NCBI GenBank assembly: GCA_003663525.1
Contig: QMUF01000017.1
Span: 1 to 16,495, forward strand
Direction of reading: 5' to 3'
From: Thermococci archaeon
GTDB taxonomy: Archaea > Methanobacteriota_B > Thermococci > Thermococcales > Thermococcaceae
Length of the DNA stretch: 16,495 nt
Positions 13,814 through 15,139 of this stretch are shown here, one piece after another. Below the pieces are notes generated by a model. That model worked only from the letters and a program-made list of their open reading frames with translations, was not told where the DNA came from and did not search any database. The translations under genes were made by a program, and so were the position numbers. Position 1 is the stretch's first letter; each line of letters starts with the position of its first letter.

Positions 13814-14093
13814 TTAAGTCTTATCTGGCTCATATTCAATGCCTCCATAGTCATCCCAATGTGCATCGGCCTCACTGTTCCAGTCTTTGGCAAGAATTGG
13901 CTCGATGGCTCTAAGCATAAGCTTAGCATACTCTTCTTCACCAGCCTTGGAATACTTTTTCTTCAGCAGGAACTCTCGAAGAGCTTCTTTGATAATCTCG
14001 CTCCTGTTAGAGTATATTCCGGCTTCAATCAGCTTATCCATTTCCTTTGCAAGGACTGGGGATTCTTGCGGAAATTTTAATTACCGTCGTCAT
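13814..14093 (-). pseudogene. Ribbon-helix-helix antitoxin (MazE/CopG type) with a frameshift
   Basis: The longest frame starts at ATG 14041 and encodes 75 residues: MDKLIEAGIYSNRSEIIKEA, then LREFLLKKKYSKAG and an acidic tail ending YEPDKT that would bind the toxin. The natural N-terminal strand, MTTVIKISARIP (ATG 14093), is in another frame; a single-base change near 14055 would join them. Without that strand the DNA-contacting ribbon is missing, so DNA binding is lost, although toxin neutralisation by the tail could remain. It ends 35 bases before the toxin start. Confidence 0.7.
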
Positions 14094-14140: not shown

Positions 14141-14452
14141 TTAGGAGGAGGAAGGTTGGTCGTAACGAGACTTACAAACTTTACAAAAATTACAGCTAAC
14201 CAGAACACTGACTTCCCCCGAGTGTAGAAAAATTTTCACGCTTGCTTGAAGAGCGGGTCAAATAATGCTGGATAACCCGCTTATTTTTCAAGAGCAACAT
14301 TATGAACATGAATAGGATTACCATTGTAAAGACTAATACTCCCTGCACCACCATCTCACCAAAAATAACAAACTAAATTAATAACTTTTTCGCAGTAATG
14401 TGATTAAAGTAACTCCCCAAAGTTAGTATTCTTACAAATTTTTGCACAAAGT
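14141..14452. other. Gene-free stretch with one long hairpin
   Basis: No frame of plausible protein is visible on either strand. The stretch is AT-rich and contains one clear structure, the hairpin at 14245-14292. I see nothing else in it. Confidence 0.6.
14245..14292 (+). terminator. Two-part hairpin, possible terminator or element end
   Basis: CTTGAA (14245-14250) and AGCGGGT (14252-14258) pair with ACCCGCT (14275-14281) and TTCAAG (14287-14292); the right side holds an extra TATTT. The loop is 16 bases. The T-rich right side would fit plus-strand termination, but no plus-strand gene ends here, so it could equally be a small mobile-element relic or a structured RNA. Confidence 0.4.
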
Positions 14453-14484
14453 TTCAAAAAATGAGAGAAGCTGCCTCAAGGCAG
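14453..14484 (-). terminator. Hairpin and T-run at the end of the DUF257 gene
   Basis: CTGCCT-CA-AGGCAG (14471-14484) overlaps the stop codon at 14476-14478. On the minus strand it is followed after about ten bases by a run of six T (14455-14460), adequate for archaeal termination. Confidence 0.5.
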
Positions 14485-15117
14485 GACAAACGAGACTCCC
14501 CAGAGTTCCTTGTTCACCGACTTCACTATCGAGAACTTGTGGGACTTTCCCTCCACATCAACCCTAATTACCGTGCTTGCCAACTCTTCAAGCAGGGGCA
14601 AGGCTTCTGGAGCAGCACTCCTCAACAAGTCAGTGTTAATGAAGTAAACCCCAATCCTCCGCTCGTCGCTAATAAGAGGGAGGATTCCATTCACGGTACT
14701 CAACACTTCCCTCTTAGACTCAGCAAGCAGGAAAAGCTTCTCAAAGCCCAGAACAGGATTAACTACCGCCCCCCCCCCCCCCGAGAGGGGCGCAAAAATT
14801 TGTCCGTACTCTTGCTCTCGAATTACTGGCTCTTTAATGTGAAGATGACCAACAACTTGACCAACTTCCAACCTACCACCAAGTTTTATGACTTTAACAT
14901 CATTCAAAATGCTAGTGTTCAAGCCAGCCAACTTCATCTGAGTCTTGTACAAGTAAAGAGTGTCTAAAACATCATCAACGATTACTTGGTACCCCTTCCC
15001 TTTCGCCCAATTCATTAACTGGCATAACCCCACGTAGGGAACTCCCGTCGAAGAATGCTTTATCAGCACTATTTCGCCAAGCTTGACACCATCCCAAACA
15101 TTCCTAACAATACTCAT
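14476..15117 (-). CDS. DUF257-family protein with a 14-G tract (possible phase-variable gene)
   Basis: 213 residues from ATG 15117 with ribosome site GGAGGGTG. The N-terminal half has KLGEIVLIKHSSTGVPYVGL and GYQVIVDDVLDTLY; the middle has KVIKLGGRLEVGQVVGHLHI and NPVLGFEKLFLLAESKREV. These are features of DUF257, a Thermococcales family with a RecA/KaiC-like fold and no known function; the P-loop position is degenerate. Between APLS and AVVNP lies GGGG (113-116), written as 14 consecutive G in the coding strand. One base fewer gives TAG and one base more gives TAA within a few codons, so slippage would cut the protein near residue 118. In the sequence as given the frame is open. Confidence 0.75.
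   Translation of the reverse strand: MSIVRNVWDGVKLGEIVLIKHSSTGVPYVGLCQLMNWAKGKGYQVIVDDVLDTLYLYKTQMKLAGLNTSILNDVKVIKLGGRLEVGQVVGHLHIKEPVIREQEYGQIFAPLSGGGGAVVNPVLGFEKLFLLAESKREVLSTVNGILPLISDERRIGVYFINTDLLRSAAPEALPLLEELASTVIRVDVEGKSHKFSIVKSVNKELWGVSFVLP
14769..14782. repeat. Mononucleotide run of 14 C (14 G in the coding strand)
   Basis: C14 is uninterrupted and is the longest homopolymer in the window. It lies in the middle of the DUF257 gene. Its true length may vary between cells or be misread by sequencing. Confidence 0.95.
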
Positions 15118-15139
15118 TCACGCCCACCCTCCAACTGGA

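Follow-up and report, generated by a model that had tools for sequence, protein, structure and literature searches.

The window, i.e., the whole stretch of 16,495 nucleotides analyzed here, covers positions 1 to 16,495 of contig QMUF01000017.1 from a Thermococci archaeon (assembly GCA_003663525.1). On its reverse strand lies a gene for a DUF257 protein that contains a run of 14 G (hereafter, tract 1), with the remnant of a second gene downstream (Table 1). The product of the first gene matched DUF257 (PF03192) with an E value of 7.6e-48 and 163.5 bits against a cut-off of 25, covering model positions 5-202 of 205. It thus belongs to this family above the Pfam gathering cut-off and across most of the model. 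The window genome has 10 DUF257 matches. The AF2 model of the protein (pLDDT 91.9) has 2ekd as the nearest solved structure, and the list of similar folds showed 2ekd and RecA-like chains, so a RecA-like fold is predicted. RecA/KaiC-like ATPases have, besides this fold, the Walker A motif (P-loop), GxxxxGK[ST]. The N-terminal GEIVLIKHSSTGVP lacks this motif, and we therefore file the protein under the RecA-like fold and not as an ATPase. In the model, tract 1 corresponds to the loop between the helix at residues 97-112 and the strand at residues 118-123.

Table 1 Features of the DUF257 locus and of the gene downstream of it (positions in the window)
Feature	Position	Strand	Basis
DUF257 gene, 213 aa, carries tract 1	14476..15117	(-)	ORF and Pfam; start codon at 15117
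Putative Shine-Dalgarno-like GGAGGGTGGG	15123..15132	(-)	Upstream of the DUF257 start; suggested by sequence reading
G14 run (tract 1)	14769..14782	(-), C14 on the + strand	Codons 112-117; read from the sequence
TM-DUF835 remnant, 52-aa ORF with membrane segment, without the DUF835 domain	14196..14354	(-)	ORF and match to P0065
G5 remnant of the second G run (tract 2)	14215..14219	(-)	Homology to G031 stops here
Palindromic repeat, dispersed, about 57 bp	14150..14206	(.)	Short matches in many of the 94 genomes

Tract 1 lies exactly where the first-pass annotation had placed it. It extends from codon 112 (TCG) into codon 117 (GCG), and the coding context is ..CTC TCG GGG GGG GGG GGG GCG GTA.., i.e., S112-GGGG-A117 of the 213-residue frame, in agreement with the four glycines described earlier. 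Read from the sequence, the loss of one base (13 G) leads to ..GGGG CGG TAG and a protein of 117 instead of 213 residues, and the gain of one base (15 G) leads to ..GGGG GGC GGT AGT TAA and 119 residues. Both off frames terminate 1-3 codons past the tract, which bears out the earlier estimate of a stop at about residue 118 on either slip. Two hallmarks of phase variation are present, i.e., a homopolymer of at least 8 within the reading frame (here G14) and an early stop upon a change of +1 or -1 base (119 and 117 aa). The hallmark of C-terminal phase variation, an off frame that encodes an alternative C-terminus, was not found, as the off frames of the window just stop.

The length of 14 is that of the assembled sequence, taken from a genome assembly that is 83% complete and in 220 contigs. 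Tract 1 is the sole G run of at least 9 in this assembly of 1.62 Mb. By a Markov estimate based on the composition of the window, chance would produce 11-13 such runs, and 0.013-0.017 (about 0.015) runs of at least 14. Long G runs thus look avoided in this genome. Across 94 Thermococcaceae genomes, the rows of the run search merged into 52 G runs of at least 9, of which tract 1 is the longest.

The homologous loop was compared in 20 DUF257 loci from 18 genomes, chosen from many more matches. A long G run is present in four of them (14 in the window, 11 in G017, 10 in G088, and 8 in G031), spread over three genera, and the longest run is at most 5 in the remaining 16. The first-pass annotation had named tract length in other strains and a glycine tract in homologs as points of comparison. 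The lengths of 8, 10, and 11 in orthologs of other species do differ from the 14 of the window. As G017 is a one-contig genome, a long tract at this loop is not peculiar to fragmentary assemblies. All four long-run loci are in frame, in a sample too small and too related to serve as a test. The loop differs in length and sequence across the orthologs, and its amino acids do not require a G run, because G102 encodes SGGG as TCA GGC GGA GGG. The window's genus also includes G012 and G010. A search for related loci with a single DUF257 protein gave none that was confirmed in genome or viral contigs. The same search with the alignment A2 gave 24 genome loci, 3 of them with a G/C run of 7 or 8, and no G/C run fell inside the match in the ten matches whose positions were compared. 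In G088, the 5' end of the DUF257 gene contains a further G8 (L123 position 1650-1657 in the orientation of the gene), and the usual N-terminal motif is altered where this run sits.

On either side of the tract, most dN/dS values were well under 1. Before and after it, they were 0.25 and 0.44, 0.16 and 0.13, and 0.25 and 0.10 in three pairs. After the tract, the comparison of the window with G031 gave 0.44 and that with G012 gave 0.81, and the pairs G017-G028 and G088-G092 had 0.10-0.25 on both sides. Third codon positions of the window and G012 were the same at 76 and different at 21 sites after the tract, against 66 and 45 before it. A mosaic gene was considered on this basis (p = 0.0044) and is not relied on, this being 1 of 9 comparisons.

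Public proteins were read for 29 of 64 cluster representatives, with tract lengths inferred from the amino acids. P0001, whose N-terminal part is 99% identical to that of the window, has GGG where the window has GGGG, and P0002 and P0003 have GG at the loop. P0003 (LS2) is 98.6% identical to the G031 gene and both have two glycines, so there is no length change between LS2 and G031. Six of the 29 representatives stop at the tract, i.e., P0017 (..LWGGGGGS), P0062 (..LSGGGS), P0033 and P0063 (both ..LSGGGGR), P0064 (..LLGGGR), and P0051 (..LPGGGGGGGGYL). The first five have R or GS tails as the off frames would give, and the P0051 tail matches neither off frame of this flank. A further candidate for a shortened allele, P0061, was dropped as an artefact, since its C-terminal LSLIHI is presumably a translated Nextera adapter. 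The others have jgi, ena, lgn, and ncbi as their sources, and we infer that slippage, rather than an error in sequencing, gave rise to them. The counts do not provide an ON:OFF ratio, because the shortened query of one protein search favors shortened forms. Differing lengths are seen between species in DNA, and on and off forms among the public proteins at the protein level only. P0017 and the DUF835 protein P0068 have the same source, the longest contig of each having 2698 bases, and may perhaps lie on one contig.

The region downstream of tract 1 points to a second G run. Alignment of the window with G031 (82% identity over 971 bp) stops in CTCGGGGG, 563 bp past tract 1. The short ORF in this region is 90.9% identical to the start of P0065 across 44 residues. 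With 193 aa and a DUF835 match at an E value of 5.8e-36, P0065 represents the intact TM-DUF835 protein, in which the membrane segment and the domain meet at ALGGGRVFLCDHVEKWE, and the corresponding joints of P0066 and P0067 read ALGGASG and ALGGGASG. The DUF835 domain is gone from the window, and the dispersed palindrome and an antitoxin-like gene stand next. Downstream of the DUF257 gene of G031 are a short membrane ORF, a G7 run (tract 2, 540 bp after tract 1, start to start), and then the DUF835 domain in a different frame. The second gene of G031 may be in an OFF state, because its membrane start and DUF835 domain differ in frame (G031:C1:542927-543051, L121); those of P0065-P0067 are in frame. 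DUF835 is found at most 1 kb downstream in 4 of the 20 DUF257 loci (G031, G088, G092, and G117). Among the 20, G031 is the only locus with a G run at the membrane/DUF835 joint, apart from the remnant of one in the window.

The palindrome that adjoins the site of the lost domain is of a 57-bp type (GTTCTGGTTAGC..GCTAACC), its matches corresponding to query 20-76 of a search over the 94 genomes. The antitoxin-like gene (about 13816-14090, reverse strand) encodes a ribbon-helix-helix protein (RHH_1, E value 6.9e-06). Its start and main part are frame-shifted apart in the window, and they are in one frame in relatives such as L159.

Two public proteins link the two genes. In P0013 (260 aa), the N-terminal half of DUF257 runs through GGG into a DUF835 domain (E value 8.7e-37) in frame, the N-terminal half being 97% identical to that of the window and the DUF835 end 96% identical to P0065. 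P0012, with an N-terminal part 99% identical to that of the window, continues after GG with AEFSCVITLKSGSSS, i.e., the start of DUF835 in the wrong frame (compare AEFSCAITLKSGSSF, frame 2). The two have differing sources (lgn and ena; jgi), and the joint in these chimeras is the joint of the intact TM-DUF835 protein P0065. The simplest origin of the chimeras would be the loss of the interval between two G runs. The exact sequence common to the two tract contexts in G031 is 9 bp. Given tract 2 downstream and the chimeras joined at G runs, tract 1 is probably a recombination joint as well, which goes beyond the plain on/off switch that the first-pass annotation had proposed.

We profiled the repair genes that bear on the stability of such runs. 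MutS_I was found in none of the 94 genomes by profile search, and MutL (PF01119) was above the cut-off in none of them, with 11 of 14 control genomes matched in each case; G028 had one weak MutL match with stops. NucS was above the cut-off in 88 of the 94 genomes and matched in all 74 near-complete ones, with no match in the window's own incomplete assembly. According to the part of the source available, mycobacterial NucS leaves indels of 1-2 nt unrepaired, and its authors tie this blindness to homopolymer phase variation (PMC11551767). On hairpin templates in vitro, PolB and PolD of Pyrococcus abyssi are described, in the available part of another paper, as slipping from one short direct repeat to another, with the slippage suppressed by PCNA (PMC4134008). 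Slippage in the cells studied here is thus plausible, because no MutS or MutL was found, NucS is indel-blind in mycobacteria, and Pyrococcus polymerases slip in vitro.

We conclude that the two G runs probably serve to switch the reading frame and as joints at which deletions occur. Replication slippage would alter the G count in tract 1. In the flank of the window, 8, 11, or 14 G would keep the frame and give full-length DUF257, and the remaining two frames would break off the protein at about 117-119 residues, partway through the predicted RecA-like fold, as the OFF state. Tract 2 sits about 550 bp from tract 1, where the membrane segment and the domain of the adjacent TM-DUF835 gene meet. 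Slippage or recombination between the two runs could delete the interval and thereby fuse the N-terminal half of DUF257 with the DUF835 domain, with the frame kept or lost. We have moderate confidence that the G14 run is a slippage-prone contingency site, with the full-length product under selection and the chimeras arising from inter-run deletion. Switching would then be frequent and reversible, and both states may be useful. The switch proposed in the first-pass annotation is a prediction, which now has more support than it had there, from the ortholog run lengths (8, 10, and 11), the full and shortened public proteins, the low dN/dS, and the lack of MutS/MutL matches. Points against it are the same length in LS2 and G031, the dN/dS of 0.81 against G012, the tail of P0051, the small number (four) of in-frame tracts, the lack of a NucS match in the window's own assembly, and the mid-gene position, as such tracts are less usual for ON/OFF switching than those near the start.

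Other explanations were weighed as well. The loop could be a length-tolerant surface loop in which slippage has expanded the run neutrally, the off alleles being loss-of-function forms of a redundant paralog and switching bringing no advantage. The variable length and sequence of the loop, the 10 DUF257 matches in the window genome, and the higher dN/dS after the tract (0.44 with G031 and 0.81 with G012) would all fit. Such drift is, however, at odds with the rarity of G runs of at least 9 (1 against 11-13 expected) when the run is long at one loop in three genera, and with dN/dS of 0.10-0.25 on both sides in G017-G028 and G088-G092, so we regard it as unlikely, while taking it seriously.

Errors of sequencing or assembly at homopolymers might instead account for the length of the run as well as for the shortened and chimeric proteins, and the incomplete assembly in 220 contigs and the adapter-like end of P0061 show where this concern comes from. 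We consider this improbable, because G11 occurs at the same loop in the one-contig genome G017, the remaining shortened proteins have several sources (jgi, ena, lgn, and ncbi), and the 9 bp common to the tract contexts of G031 are short for an assembly mis-join. Recoding, in which RNA polymerase or the ribosome slips so that the full-length and the short protein are both made in every cell regardless of the number of G in the DNA, is more improbable still. Long homopolymers can cause transcriptional slippage, and recoding would explain the persistence of off-frame alleles, but it leaves the chimeras and the end of homology at tract 2 unexplained.

Phase variation at homopolymers is a textbook subject in bacterial pathogens; its kind is well known in bacteria and little documented in archaea. 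The locus resembles the translational phase variation by poly-G/C tracts of Campylobacter, Neisseria, and Helicobacter in its in-frame G run, the several lengths seen between species, and its off-frame stops. It differs in that it belongs to an archaeal hyperthermophile, the tract is at residue 112 of 213 and not near the start, a second tract is found in the next gene, and switching at the clone level is predicted. Genetic tools exist for Thermococcus, so that switching is directly testable. As a free-living hyperthermophile does not have to escape an immune system, the purpose of switching would have to lie elsewhere (viruses, changing vents, or partner proteins).

The C-terminal phase variation of Helicobacter canadensis, as far as the available part of the paper goes, likewise has a homopolymer deep in the frame and an altered C-terminal part (PMC2823697), whereas the off frames of the window stop at once, and among the forms found here only the chimeric alleles have a new C-terminus. 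Mycobacteria share NucS-type repair, the absence of MutS/MutL, and long runs in genes (PMC11551767, in the part available), but ours is an archaeon and the indel blindness known from mycobacterial NucS may not hold for Thermococcus NucS. The hypervariable VARTIG module, from the same order, also varies C-terminal domains by recombination; it concerns Ig-domain proteins and exchange between species, with no homopolymer described in the accessible part of that source (PMC8416519). Slippage by PolB and PolD of Pyrococcus abyssi offers a possible route to deletions between short repeats, although the accessible part of that work concerns hairpin templates rather than homopolymers and reports PCNA suppression (PMC4134008). 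No paper among the best-ranked literature matches described homopolymer phase variation in a Thermococcales coding gene. With paired tracts, the exchange of domains would come on top of ON/OFF switching, and tract 2 and the chimeras, if confirmed in DNA, would amount to more than a plain on/off switch.

Long G runs were also found ahead of start codons. Of the 52 runs of at least 9, 20 are 1-12 nt before a start codon that opens at least 60 aa on the G strand, compared with 1 of 52 in the C-strand control and 438 of 4160 (10.5%) random positions. For 14 of these 20, the first 35 residues of the product include a hydrophobic stretch (mean hydropathy of at least 2.6 over 10 residues), so G runs recur at the translation starts of secreted proteins. 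In three of the 14 (G020a, G079, and G116a) the start codon actually used is likely 16-17 codons downstream. Start-adjacent runs include those at L016, L018, L025, L066, L079, L145, L081, L088, L144, and L156, among others, and many of the genes behind them open with a signal-peptide-like segment. G012 and G031 have in common a run (12 and 10, respectively) before the same gene for a secreted Cys-rich protein. Changes in run length at the starts of secreted-protein genes could tune translation.

We put forward only tentatively, and as rather doubtful, that the locus is an archaeal two-tract domain switch and that long G runs are a general contingency system of Thermococcales without MutS/MutL. 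If this were true, cells could make DUF257 at full length or shortened, turn the membrane protein DUF835 on or off, or produce a soluble fusion of DUF257 and DUF835. The choice would be made by slippage within and deletion between matching homopolymers of two neighboring genes for RecA/KaiC-like proteins, the soluble DUF257 and the membrane DUF835. The contingency runs of Thermococcales would then be located both here and at the ribosome-binding positions of genes for secreted proteins. A separate run, at L142 (G082), is a G11 on the sense strand at codon 258 of an ORF whose start looks adenylosuccinate synthetase-like by eye.
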